Assembly: GCF_027923765.1 (NCBI RefSeq)
Contig: NZ_AP026709.1
Location: forward strand, 1,855,501-1,919,500
Length of the DNA stretch: 64,000 bases
Reading direction: 5' to 3'
Origin: Pseudodesulfovibrio nedwellii
Lineage (GTDB): Bacteria > Desulfobacterota > Desulfovibrionia > Desulfovibrionales > Desulfovibrionaceae
Part shown: positions 1 through 57,659 of the stretch, in pieces
How the letters are laid out: each line of letters starts with the position of its first letter
Position numbering within the stretch: position 1 is the stretch's first letter
Notes under the pieces: model-generated
Seen by the model: the letters and a program-made list of their open reading frames with translations, nothing else
Told to the model about the DNA's origin: nothing
Database searches by the model: none
Position numbers and translations under genes: made by a program

Positions 1-940
1 ACACTTCACACGGGAAGATATCTTCAACCATTTCATCGCGATAATCCTTGTCAGACAAATTAAAAAGTTTTCGCATGGCCGGGTTGATAACCGTAATCTT
101 GCCGGTCACATCCACCACCAACAGACCATCTGCCAAGTTATCAAGAATCGCCGAAAGGTACGCCATATGATCTCGGAGCTCACCGGTAGCCTTGTCCACT
201 TCGCTATTCATTTCCATAAACAGCAACGCTAACTCCTGCCCCATGGACTGCATGGCCCGTCCAAGAAGATTCAGTTCATCCTTGGTCCGAATGTCAATCG
301 TCGCAGAAAAATCATGGGCGGCCAGCCTTCGGGCGTATTCAGTCAGTTGATCGAGAGGACGGGAAATACGCCGAGTAACCAGATACAAAACACCAACACA
401 AGCCCAAAAAGTGAAAAACAGTAAGACCTGCATGTCGAAAATCGCTTTCCAAAAATAACTCACGACCAACTCTTTATCCATCCCGACATGGACATAACCG
501 GCCACACCCGCCAAAACCGGAGCACAGATATCAATCACTCTTCCGAGTGACTCAACCTTCAATTCGGTAACGATCTGCATGTGCTTGGACTTGGGCAAAG
601 GCTTCAAGACATCAGGAACTTCAGGAACAAAGGTATGTGAAACGATAACACCATCAGAATCTACGACAAAAACATATGCCACGCCCTCGATCGCAAGATA
701 TTGATCAATCATGGCCTGAGTCGTGGCTGCATTGCGTCCCAACAAGACTTCCTGGCTGGCGCTGGCAATAGCTGTGGCAATGGCCGCCCCCTTGCTGACG
801 TATTCGCTGGTCAAACGATCGTGCAGGGTATAGGCCGCCAACGCAGAGGTCAGAATGGAAATACAGCCGAACAGACAAAAGGCGAGCAGCCCCGTCTTCA
901 AGAAAATGGACATTCCCTTTATTTGCGCCATGACTGCCAT
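1..940 (-). CDS. Sensor kinase-like protein, N-terminal part (cut by window edge)
   Basis: About 313 residues are visible before the left edge. Order: cytoplasmic start, first membrane segment near residues 10-32, a sensor region of about 130 residues, second membrane segment near 165-187, a HAMP linker (RRISRPLDQLTEYARRL), and the start of a PAS domain (GLLVVDVTGKITVINPAMRK). This is the usual N-terminal half of a membrane histidine kinase or related signalling output; the catalytic part lies outside the window, so the output type is unknown. Several starts are possible: ATG at 940 (GAGGG just upstream), 931 or 913. All overlap or nearly overlap the stop of the upstream binding-protein gene (919-921), so the two are co-transcribed and probably translationally coupled. 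I infer that the binding protein and kinase form one sensing unit. Confidence 0.8.
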   Translation of the reverse strand, partial: MAVMAQIKGMSIFLKTGLLAFCLFGCISILTSALAAYTLHDRLTSEYVSKGAAIATAIASASQEVLLGRNAATTQAMIDQYLAIEGVAYVFVVDSDGVIVSHTFVPEVPDVLKPLPKSKHMQIVTELKVESLGRVIDICAPVLAGVAGYVHVGMDKELVVSYFWKAIFDMQVLLFFTFWACVGVLYLVTRRISRPLDQLTEYARRLAAHDFSATIDIRTKDELNLLGRAMQSMGQELALLFMEMNSEVDKATGELRDHMAYLSAILDNLADGLLVVDVTGKITVINPAMRKLFNLSDKDYRDEMVEDIFPCEV

Positions 941-20689: not shown

Positions 20690-21853
20690 ATGCACACGCA
20701 CTCGCACACATTTCCATTCCTCGCGATCCTCATGATTGTGACACTTCTGTGCCCGCTCATACCGGCCCACGCTCAGGAAGATTTTCCACTGCGCCCATAT
20801 TACCCGGAAGTCACCCCCATCACGACAGACAAACTCATGGCAGAGTATGATATAACCGTGATCGTCGACATCCGATCTCGACTCGAATACGAGGTTGCCC
20901 GCATCAACAAGGCAATCCTCCTCCCCCTCACCTTAGAAAACTTTGCCGACAAACTGGAAGAAGTCCGTCCAAAACACAGCGCAAAACCAATGGCCTTTTA
21001 TTGTAACGGTCATTCCTGCGCCAAAAGCTATCAGGCGGCCCAGCTCGCCCTCTCCCTCGGATTCGAAAACGTTTTCGTATATGACGGTGGCATTTTTGAC
21101 TGGATTACCGCCATCCCGAAAAGGGGAACGCTCATGGGGGAAACACCGGCCCGCGCAGACCGTATTATCGATTCCCAAAAATTTCTCCAGCACCAGATTT
21201 CCTATGACGAATTCTTGGCTGCTTCCAAAGAACCAAACACGGTTGTCATTGATATCCGTGATCCATTCCAACGAGACAGCGGCCCCAGAATCGACGACAT
21301 TCGCAACATCCCGCTGGACCCACTCCTTGACCTTGTAACATCTCGTATCTGGACAGAAAAAAAACTCCTCTTTTTTGATGCCGTCGGCAAACAAATTCGT
21401 TGGCTGCAATACTTCCTGAACGCTTATGATTACTTCGATTACGCGTTCCTCGAAGGCGGCATGCGTGCCATTGCCAACGATCCCACCAAGATCAAACCCG
21501 TCATTGAAACCGACCAGACAGTCATTACCAGCCAGTCCATGCTTCTCAAACTGACGGCAGATCAACGACTGGACAATGCCGATCGCAAAGTCATCAGTTA
21601 TCTGCTTGCCAACATCAAATTCAACAATTACGTGGTAATCGACATTAATGACGTCAGCCGGGACACGGGTATCAGCTCATCCCTGCTTACCAATTCAATG
21701 AAAAAACTCACCACTTTCGGTTACGCAACACACTCGATAATGCAAGGGATGCTCATCGCACAGGTTGACCCGCGTCTAGCCTGGAAAGGCGACCCCGACA
21801 GCCCACTCTGGAATCACAAAGTCAAGGAATTCGATGCTGCCATTCAACAATAG
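20690..21853 (+). CDS. Exported double-rhodanese protein with C-terminal winged-helix-like domain
   Basis: 387 residues from the ATG at 20690 (MHTHSHTFPFLAIL), which gives a clear signal peptide ending at PAHAQ; the longer in-frame opening overlaps the hydrolase gene. First rhodanese domain about 50-165, with the active-site loop FYCNGHSCAKS. Second rhodanese-like domain about 185-290, where the loop (LLFFDAVGKQIRW) lacks Cys and is presumably inactive. Residues about 310-380 (DRKVISYLLANIKF; DVSRDTGISSSLLTNSMKKL; AQVDPRLAWKGD) resemble a winged helix of the RepL type. A DNA-binding-like fold behind a signal peptide is unexpected; it may be a protein-interaction domain in the periplasm. Its 3' end overlaps the NMT1 gene by 20 bases. 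Confidence 0.75.
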   Translation: MHTHSHTFPFLAILMIVTLLCPLIPAHAQEDFPLRPYYPEVTPITTDKLMAEYDITVIVDIRSRLEYEVARINKAILLPLTLENFADKLEEVRPKHSAKPMAFYCNGHSCAKSYQAAQLALSLGFENVFVYDGGIFDWITAIPKRGTLMGETPARADRIIDSQKFLQHQISYDEFLAASKEPNTVVIDIRDPFQRDSGPRIDDIRNIPLDPLLDLVTSRIWTEKKLLFFDAVGKQIRWLQYFLNAYDYFDYAFLEGGMRAIANDPTKIKPVIETDQTVITSQSMLLKLTADQRLDNADRKVISYLLANIKFNNYVVIDINDVSRDTGISSSLLTNSMKKLTTFGYATHSIMQGMLIAQVDPRLAWKGDPDSPLWNHKVKEFDAAIQQ

Positions 21854-55913: not shown

Positions 55914-57176
55914 ATGTCATCCAAGAAAAAACCACAGCCAAAGATGCTGTTTGCGACTCCGGAAGGTGAAATATTCGACCATCCGGATCTTTTACTCATG
56001 ATCCGTCGAGGCGACGAATTCGGCCTGCCAAGACCTGATGAAATCACCCCGCTCCCCGCAGAATCCGAATTCTTCATGCTGCCCGGTCGTCACGCCATGG
56101 GCTATAACCCGGAAACGGGACAAGCCGAAGTCATGGAAGAACTGGCCGTGGCCGCATTTGCTTGTCCGGGTCACACGCTCACCGGCGTTGCGGCCTATGA
56201 CTTAGACGATGATGCGCCAATACTGCCTTTGCTGTCATATGGCGGCATTGGATTTGCTGACGGCAAGTTCTGGGTCTGCGCCAAAAAGGTAGACGACGAC
56301 AAACGACAAGTGTTCAAACACATTCCACCAGATCGTGTGGAAGCCGGAGCTCATCAACTTATTTCAGAAATGCCGGAAAACAGATTGGTCAACCATCTGG
56401 CGGGGTGCGCCTTGACCAGCGGTTGCCCTGCAGCCAAAAACCTTGCGCTAGGCCGCTTTGAATGCCCTCTGCCCACGGCACAGTCATGTAACGCCCAATG
56501 CGTTGGCTGCATTTCCAAGCAACCCGAAGATTCCGGTTTCCCATCCCCGCAATGCCGAATCAGTTTCACGCCCACGGCCAAAGAAATCGTGCAAGTCATG
56601 CGCCGCCACGAATCCCGTGAACGCCGCCCCATCTTCTCCTTTGGGCAGGGTTGCGAAGGAGAACCCCTCACTGAAGCCGAACTTATCTGTGATGCAATCA
56701 AGGAATACCGCTCTGACGGAGGCTCCGGTACCGTCAACGTGAACACCAACGGTTCACGCCACATGGTTATTCCTGCCCTCAAGATAGCTGGCGTGAACTC
56801 TATACGTGTCAGCCTGAATTCAGCGCGTAAAGGCCCATATGAGGCATACTACCGTCCCAAGGGCTATACCTTTGAAGATGTCCGTGAAACCATTGCCAAG
56901 GCCCATGAGGTCGGCATGTTCGTGTCATTGAACCTTCTTTTCTTCCCTGGCATTACCGATACCGAGGAAGAATTCGACGCATTGGTCGAACTGGGCGAGT
57001 CATGCAAATACGACTTCGTTCAATTACGCAACCTCAACCTCGATCCTGACCTTTACATGCGGTTAATGAAACCCTTCGGTCATTCCCCAAGCATGGGCTT
57101 CATGAACTTCAAGAAACGGCTTAAAAAGGCCCTCCCCTGGATCGAATACGGATATTTCAATCCGTATCTGGGATAA
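55914..57176 (+). CDS. Radical SAM protein of unknown specificity
   Basis: 420 residues. The [4Fe-4S]-binding motif is C-NAQ-C-VG-C (CX3CX2C) near residue 190, preceded by several other cysteines (ACALTSGCPAA; GRFECPLPTAQSC) that could bind another cluster. GQGCEGEPL follows in the position of the SAM-binding GGE motif, and RVSLNSARKGPYEAYY continues the TIM-barrel. The N-terminal 190 residues are not typical of simple activases. Substrate unknown. Cytosolic. Monocistronic, ended by the terminator at 57194. Confidence 0.85.
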   Translation: MSSKKKPQPKMLFATPEGEIFDHPDLLLMIRRGDEFGLPRPDEITPLPAESEFFMLPGRHAMGYNPETGQAEVMEELAVAAFACPGHTLTGVAAYDLDDDAPILPLLSYGGIGFADGKFWVCAKKVDDDKRQVFKHIPPDRVEAGAHQLISEMPENRLVNHLAGCALTSGCPAAKNLALGRFECPLPTAQSCNAQCVGCISKQPEDSGFPSPQCRISFTPTAKEIVQVMRRHESRERRPIFSFGQGCEGEPLTEAELICDAIKEYRSDGGSGTVNVNTNGSRHMVIPALKIAGVNSIRVSLNSARKGPYEAYYRPKGYTFEDVRETIAKAHEVGMFVSLNLLFFPGITDTEEEFDALVELGESCKYDFVQLRNLNLDPDLYMRLMKPFGHSPSMGFMNFKKRLKKALPWIEYGYFNPYLG

Positions 57177-57193
57177 TATTAAATCCAAACGAT

Positions 57194-57228
57194 AAAAGCC
57201 GCCCTCCATTTGGAAGGCGGCTTTTTTA
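57194..57228. terminator. Bidirectional terminator, radical SAM gene and selenorhodanese
   Basis: AAAGCCGCC-TCC pairs with GGA-GGCGGCTTT, with T-run on the plus side and A-run on the other. Confidence 0.88.
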
Positions 57229-57242
57229 TTCTCATCAATTTG

Positions 57243-57659
57243 TCATTTCAATTGTGTCGGATATTCTTTTTTTTCCCACGCAGCCCATCCACCTTTAAGA
57301 GCATAGACGTTCTTATAGCCAGCCTTGATCAATGCCTGCGCCGCCCGGGCGCTGGTGTATTCATTGTATCAGGCGCAATAAAGGACAATCGTCTTATCTT
57401 TAGGCATATCTGCCATCCATGAAGTATCATCATGCGGTTTACGGACAGCATTCTTAATCATGAACTCACTTTCGTCCCAGTCCCGACCACGACGGACATC
57501 AACGATCACCAATTCATCGGAGTCAATCATTTCTACCAGTTGCTCCACTTCCATACGGGGGGCACTGTCATCAGCTCTTGCGCTCGGCACAATTCCAACC
57601 GCACACACAACTCCCAACACTAAAGTCATTGTCATCAACATCATTTTTCGCTGAATCAT
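57243..57659 (-). CDS. Exported rhodanese with predicted selenocysteine at the active site
   Basis: 138 residues if the TGA at 57371-57369 is read as selenocysteine (residue 97); 96 residues if it stops. A signal peptide (about 1-29, ending PSARA) leads to a single rhodanese domain: VIVDVRRGRDWDESEF, then VLYCA-U-YNEYTSARAAQAL, AGYKNVYALKGGWAAW, stop TGA at 57243. Eight residues separate U from AAQ, the same as from the catalytic Cys to AAQ in GlpE (from memory), so U stands at the catalytic position. The frame and rhodanese similarity continue for 41 codons after the TGA. A SECIS-like hairpin follows at once. The protein would be a periplasmic sulfur- or selenium-transferase or reductase. 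AGGAAG precedes the ATG. Confidence 0.8.
57335..57355 (-). promoter_or_regulatory. Predicted bacterial SECIS hairpin
   Basis: On the minus strand CC-A-GCGCC, loop CGGGC, GGCGC-A-GG. The loop begins 21 bases after the TGA and has G as its second base, both within the bacterial SECIS model (loop roughly 16-37 bases after UGA, G among the first two loop bases). Confidence 0.7.

Follow-up and report, generated by a model that had tools for sequence, protein, structure and literature searches.

Selenoproteins that reside in the periplasm are known, for example formate dehydrogenase and [NiFeSe] hydrogenase, and the rhodanese GlpE of Escherichia coli is cytoplasmic and carries a Cys instead of a C-x-U motif. 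Rhodanese-type selenoproteins appear among those listed in the available portions of two marine surveys (PMC2398784 and PMC1088965), and a rhodanese-like selenoprotein as well as a sulfurtransferase selenoprotein have been predicted in a marine deltaproteobacterial genome, according to the accessible text of PMC8318568. The closest described family is covered by the NCBIfam equivalog model NF041203 (rhodanese_LYCAU, "rhodanese-related (seleno)protein"), which the available part of PMC13188914 lists as 'Rhodanese-like domain-containing protein form 3' with the motif CxU and the accession TKB26178.1, credited to Zhang and Gladyshev 2005; in an excerpt of PMC9312934 that accession is listed as COG0607 form 2, CxU. 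The same part of PMC13188914 also lists 'rhodanese form 1, UxxS', and gives the motif UxxxxU for TsoB (NF045694), a rhodanese/DsbD fusion-like selenoprotein. A literature search for periplasmic rhodanese or sulfurtransferase selenoproteins of Desulfovibrio or Desulfobacterota returned none.

The window, that is the whole stretch of 64,000 nucleotides analysed here, comes from Pseudodesulfovibrio nedwellii, whose genome is a single contig of 3.76 Mb. An earlier note had placed at 57243-57659 an exported rhodanese with a TGA at codon 97 and 41 further codons; these coordinates are right, and both the TGA and the 41 sense codons between it and the terminal stop are found on the minus strand, which that note had left unstated. 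The gene runs from 57659 down to 57243 and encodes 138 residues plus stop, and a plus-strand reading of the same interval was rejected, there being no rhodanese frame on that strand. The locus comprises the following features.

57573..57659, minus strand: predicted signal peptide, residues 1-29, with likely cleavage after SARA, read from the sequence.
57243..57659, minus strand: coding sequence of the candidate Sec-rhodanese, 138 residues, with the terminal stop UGA at 57245-57243.
57270..57548, minus strand: rhodanese domain PF00581, residues 38-130, from a match of 59.5 bits (gathering cut-off 22.2) and the predicted fold.
57375..57377, minus strand: codon of C95, which opens the C-x-U pair and shows no variation in 34 rows.
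57369..57371, minus strand: UGA codon 97, read as Sec; of 35 orthologs, 33 have TGA here and the other two TGC.
57338..57352, minus strand: putative bSECIS hairpin with a 5-bp stem and the 5-nt loop CGGGC, the loop starting 21 nt past the UGA.
57194..57226, no strand given: inverted repeat resembling a terminator, with A/T runs, located between the Sec-rhodanese gene and the convergent radical SAM gene and identified by eye.

The active-site loop of the translated product reads IVLYCAUYNEYTSARAAQAL, in which YCAU are residues 94-97, and its C-terminal end reads GGWAAWEKKEYPTQLK; without recoding of the UGA the frame amounts to 96 residues. Upon scanning the entire window for TGA-joined frames, eight were left, among which the rhodanese was the sole selenoprotein candidate, the other seven being judged by eye.

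We find that the window protein is a further member of a catalogued, computationally known selenoprotein family, as described in the available part of PMC13188914, and is not new. With U read as C, its NF041203 score is 164.9 bits (curated cut-off 115), with residues 17-138 aligning to positions 4-126 of the 126-position profile (157.6 bits for the same locus in the genome search), and its LYCAU loop is that of the family, with the C-x-U motif that the accessible entry of PMC13188914 gives for this model. There is no difference in kind, and only the UxU relatives described below exceed the single-Sec CxU entry of the review table, the term 'UxU' being absent from the available text of that review. 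NF041203 is the annotation model that NCBI uses for the family, and this was overlooked in the earlier expectation that automatic annotation would call a truncated 96-residue protein. Membership of TsoB was ruled out: the rhodanese domain and the paired Cys/Sec loop are shared, but the spacing of the pair differs and the window protein scores 38.3 bits where the cut-off is 805. What is novel are the paired Cys/Sec loop found across the wider family and a second Sec-rhodanese in the host genome, both beyond the scope of the earlier note.

To place codon 97 in a comparative frame, the protein was searched against 288 genomes from its taxonomic family, of which 188 gave matches, and the top 35 rows, down to an E value of 1.8e-19, were taken as the ortholog set; the first listed match below it has an E value of 6.1e-12 and is stop-free. 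A homologue search for Cys or TGA at this position had been proposed, and among the 35 orthologs codon 97 is TGA in 33 and TGC in two, with no TAA or TAG. The TGA-bearing orthologs span seven genera, the two Cys orthologs (L038 and L034, from genomes G213 and G214) have the loop YCTC, and within the genus the distribution is patchy, an ortholog being found in 11 of 36 genomes. One locus, L010, is a copy of L009 and was dropped from alignments A1 and A2, from the tree and from the signal-peptide count. Over the 34 distinct sequences 15 residues are invariant; position 97, which is Sec or Cys throughout, counts as one of them, along with C95, E100, T102, S103, G123, G124, W125 and W128.

Cys forms were also sought across the genome collection with the pattern YCAC-[PYH]-[NSD]-E, which recovered 32 loci (L090-L121); this pattern required Cys and is therefore informative on Cys forms only, and uninformative on the frequency of Sec forms. 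All 15 loci that were translated share the loop with both Cys and the GG-x-x-x-W end, and in 11 of them the rhodanese end is preceded by a long membrane part, which we take to be DedA-like. The window protein differs from them in lacking that membrane part and in having Sec where they have Cys. The stand-alone Cys protein of Desulfatitalea (L090) is 48% identical to the window protein.

The test for selA, selB, selC and selD suggested in the earlier note found all four in the host genome above cut-off, with SelA at 612.5 bits (cut-off 267.9), SelB at 398.6 bits (cut-off 242.25), tRNA-Sec at 78.7 bits (cut-off 47) and SelD at 340.6 bits (cut-off 125). Furthermore, SelB was matched at 6.6e-98 or better in all 35 ortholog genomes. 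The SelD frame of the host (L056, G000:C1:2702383-2703312) itself holds one in-frame TGA, and SelD is thus likely a selenoprotein too.

Next, we examined the hairpin downstream of the UGA. A SECIS-like hairpin with its loop 21 bases past the UGA and G as second loop base had been described, and exactly such a structure was found at 57352-57338, with the sequence GCGCC [CGGGC] GGCGC. The bSECIS limits given in the available part of PMC13188914 are a loop of 3-9 nt, a stem of 4-16 bp, a spacing of 16-37 nt, a G within the first two loop bases and an MFE <= -7.5, and the window hairpin lies within the limits of that source, with a loop of 5, a stem of 5 bp and a spacing of 21. Its folding energy is -7.9 kcal/mol for the bare 15-nt hairpin and -11.4 for 23 nt. 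The hairpin of the single window sequence is weak evidence, an equally good one arising in 11% of synonymous shuffles of the window sequence alone. When folding z-scores against synonymous shuffles were calculated, the 33 TGA sequences (L010 included) averaged -1.36, with single values from -3.2 to +0.4, compared with -2.88 and -1.30 in the two orthologs with Cys, so that Sec and Cys orthologs are not separated; single-sequence folding was dropped as support, since the energies fail to distinguish TGA from Cys orthologs.

It is the comparative evidence, rather than single-sequence folding, that carries the SECIS case. Across the 32 distinct TGA sequences, standard pairs occupy 98.8% of the cells of the 5-bp stem (UGA+17 to +31), with one mismatched pair in two of the 32, as against 28-63% of cells paired in slid control helices, and RNAalifold recovers the identical helix unaided. 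Twelve stem cells, in two pairs, are altered on both sides, which none of 500 shuffles matched; likewise, none of the 500 reached the covariation score of 0.317, their mean being 0.151. Two of the five covariation measures, the counts of pairs and of pair types, were not above the shuffles (131 and 452 of 500), which we attribute to the helix having five pairs only. The paired changes are visible in the protein, where S-A-R-V-A, S-S-R-V-G and S-T-R-V-V correspond to GCC/GGC, TCC/GGG and ACC/GGT, respectively. That 32 distinct sequences conserve the hairpin through paired changes strongly supports a predicted SECIS element. Judging from these comparisons, it is nearly certain that the window protein would be a selenoprotein.

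We also examined the N-terminus of the orthologs. A positively charged N-terminus leading into a hydrophobic stretch was found in all 34 distinct orthologs, under a crude rule and with an upstream GTG start taken for L022. Export through the predicted N-terminal signal peptide is highly probable, as is the selenoprotein and family reading when taken together with export. The signal-like N-terminus claimed in the earlier note is well supported, and its being special to this gene did not hold, all 34 distinct orthologs having the same feature. As a well-supported, predicted exported rhodanese selenoprotein, the protein occurs in a single-contig genome and has orthologs in the genus, and the role of a Sec-bearing rhodanese is therefore testable here.

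We then turned to the wider family and searched NF041203 in 395 genomes drawn evenly across the phylum. There were 84 rows over the cut-off, in 61 genomes, of which 75 have at least one TGA, eight are stop-free and one has a TAA only, the position of the stop codons being read in the fetched loci only. Two TGAs are present in 11 of the rows over the cut-off, every one of them U-x-U, and a further U-x-U row lies below it (L164). In these UxU loci (L130, L136, L140, L147-L154 and L164) the loop is Y-U-x-U with one conserved hairpin each, and that single hairpin lies 21 nt after the second UGA, or 27 nt after the first. The 45 phylum loci that were fetched had been enriched on purpose for two-TGA and stop-free rows, and the 12 UxU among 36 are not a frequency. 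Hairpins are intact in 5 of 5 pairs in all 33 Sec-type sequences read from the phylum loci, whereas 2, 1 and 1 of the 5 pairs are left in the forms without Sec, namely CxC (L155 and L156) and CxS (L160). A literature search for UxU selenoproteins returned only a paper on metal binding in neurodegeneration, which leaves room for UxU rhodaneses to have been described elsewhere.

The eight stop-free rows over the cut-off comprise two CxC, five CxS and one SxS. Outside the Sec forms, position 97 is Ser more often than Cys in the phylum sample, which fits poorly with Cys as the sole alternative to Sec. No motif was recovered in nine of the 45 loci (L131, L157, L158, L159, L161, L162, L163, L165 and L166), and upon aligning these nine together with L160 we observed CxS in six (L157-L161, and L163, where residue 94 is a stop), SxS in L162, CxA in L165 and L166, and YCA-stop with a second stop further on in L131. 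C95 is kept in eight of the nine relatives with Ser or Ala at position 97, the exception being L162. The loci L157-L163, L165 and L166 are paralogs without Cys or Sec at this position, and they may be ordinary single-Cys rhodaneses.

On a tree of 78 rows with the motif masked, the four states CxU, UxU, CxC and CxS need 13 changes; UxU alone needs eight, five of them forced by starred branches, and CxC needs four, three of them forced. This tree was built from 108 columns and has 25 open forks, several long branches and an unsettled bootstrap, and of the ten loci aligned separately (the Ser/Ala forms and L131) it includes only L160, so that Ser and Ala are hardly sampled. Because of the few columns, the open forks, the long branches, the unsettled bootstrap and the single Ser/Ala row, repeated switching between Cys and Sec is the only safe reading of it.

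Regarding the fold, an AlphaFold2 model on alignment A1 has a mean pLDDT of 86.7, low in the first 30 residues only, with a strand at 90-94, a helix at 101-112 and a loop between them, and in this model both C95 and U97 are predicted to lie within the active-site loop between strand and helix. Foldseek and VIA-align recover rhodaneses (3tp9, Z 16.7; 6mxv, Z 14.2; GlpE 1gmx, Z 14.0), and the 50 listed structure matches, at Z 12.9-16.7, include rhodanese-type proteins, GlpE among them. E. coli GlpE shares the rhodanese fold at an rmsd of 2.7 over 105 residues and is two residues shorter across the alignment, which sets its 1..107 on 30..138 of the model. According to the earlier note, the TGA falls exactly on the catalytic Cys position in rhodaneses of the GlpE type. 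A gap-free HMMER alignment to 6mxv agrees, with U97 on the classical loop Cys, but MAFFT with six of the other rhodanese domains of the host genome places C95 on the classical Cys, the loop being two residues longer. Overall, Sec, the rhodanese fold and the signal-like N-terminus are the well-supported parts of the first interpretation, while corrections apply to its points on annotation, on export as a special feature and on the exact match to the catalytic Cys, for which the two alignments disagree.

We propose that SelB and tRNA-Sec, together with the hairpin that lies 21 nt further on, would decode UGA codon 97 as Sec, and that the product would be a single-domain rhodanese of 138 residues exported by its predicted N-terminal signal peptide. 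C95 and U97 would form a C-x-U redox pair, in which a sulfane sulfur or an oxidising equivalent would be accepted by one residue and resolved by its partner through a selenenylsulfide. Outside the cytoplasm, the protein would in this way reduce persulfide, polysulfide or an oxidised sulfur (or selenium) species of that sort, or transfer it. We consider this redox-pair mechanism somewhat favoured, with the invariance of C95 in 34 rows and the existence of UxU, CxC and CxS relatives pointing towards it. A broader proposal, which we hold to be evenly balanced, is that the loop of the family would be an interchangeable Cys/Sec pair (C-x-C, C-x-U, U-x-U), with the window protein as its one-selenium state, several Cys/Sec swaps and one hairpin for two UGAs, that these proteins would be secreted selenenylsulfide/diselenide oxidoreductases and not simple sulfurtransferases, and that the second Sec-rhodanese of the host genome (P0002) would follow the same rule, though with a different spacing of the pair. 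The natural CxC, CxU, UxU series could reveal what selenium adds at each position, and the UxU relatives whether one hairpin decodes two UGAs one codon apart.

The leading alternative, which we regard as possible but rather unlikely, is a plain sulfurtransferase in which U97 would be the classical nucleophile, forming a selenosulfide and handing on sulfur, with C95 as a structural residue. This would agree with the rhodanese fold and with the HMMER placement of U97 on the loop Cys of 6mxv, but C95 is invariant in the 34 rows, is set at the classical position by MAFFT and is retained by all but one of the nine relatives in which residue 97 is Ser or Ala; moreover, position 95 is Sec in the 12 UxU sequences, which would be needless for a structural residue. 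The redox pair remains our preferred reading over this alternative and over a role in selenium rather than sulfur chemistry, such as selenite handling outside the cytoplasm, which appears improbable. In favour of a selenium role, the host makes Sec and, according to the available text of PMC10298544, selenite and glutathione can give rise to a selenopersulfide on a rhodanese, but the nearest genes are purM and the radical SAM gene, with no recognised selenium genes, and Cys relatives exist at the 32 YCAC loci.

The genomic neighbourhood was compared over the 35 loci, and no neighbour in this operon context points to a substrate or function. Within the genus, purM is a neighbour in 10 of 11 loci and the radical SAM gene in 6 of 11. 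The commonest neighbour overall is an upstream membrane protein, at 19 of the 35 loci, followed by purM at 10 loci and a downstream membrane protein at 8. The upstream membrane protein is about 400 residues long and occurs at L019-L022, L024-L030, L032, L033 and L035, these 14 being from other genera, and at five more loci; two of its members were searched and gave no Pfam or NCBIfam match. The radical SAM protein, at window positions 55914-57176 and convergent to the Sec-rhodanese gene, matched five NCBIfam models, each with a score under the respective cut-off.

Two further readings concern the UGA codon itself. The UGA could be a true stop, with the 96-residue N-terminal part as the working product; UGA is a release factor 2 stop, and partial termination at Sec codons is usual. 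Such a product would end before two elements that contain invariant residues, the helix that follows the loop and the GGW motif, and the segment downstream of the UGA is under purifying selection. NG86 dN/dS past the UGA was 0.02-0.34 in 16 of 17 close pairs, with dS saturated in the remaining one, for pairs that were hand-picked and non-independent, one of them the Cys pair, and that span 41 codons (47 in the Cys pair). The same TGA is present in G227, a second genome of the species, and given this, the conservation and the selection past the UGA, the true-stop reading was rejected as very improbable. A pseudogene or sequencing error, that is an ordinary Cys rhodanese with a newly arisen nonsense codon, would account for an unrecoded frame of only 96 residues but is scarcely conceivable and was refuted by the conservation of the UGA codon and the downstream frame, with TGA kept by 33 of the 35 orthologs, across seven genera, at least one TGA in 75 of the 84 NF041203 rows over the cut-off, purifying selection past the UGA and the TGA shared by G227.

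Finally, the host genome contains further rhodanese-type genes. The second exported Sec-rhodanese, P0002, lies outside the window (L004 1348-2358; G000:C1 about 2844115-2845125) and has 336 aa, with a rhodanese and an AhpC/TSA-like domain and the loop YCRSFRU. When P0002 was searched in the 288 genomes, 45 rows at E <= 1e-20 were found, 37 of them with one TGA, and the Cys relative L089 reads CRNFRC, that is C-x4-C as against C-x4-U. All six pairs of a hairpin with the loop GGGC, 25 nt past the UGA, form in 21 of 25 loci, among them the Cys locus, and the predicted minimum-energy folds of the P0002 loci often differ from this structure. No NCBIfam model matched P0002 above its cut-off, TsoB reaching 97.9 of 805 bits. 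Directly upstream of P0002, at L004 186-1283, lies one protein that has three rhodanese-domain matches and CGGFHC / CGGYKC loops. Within the window, at 20828-21478, a 435-residue frame free of internal stops has two rhodanese-domain matches.
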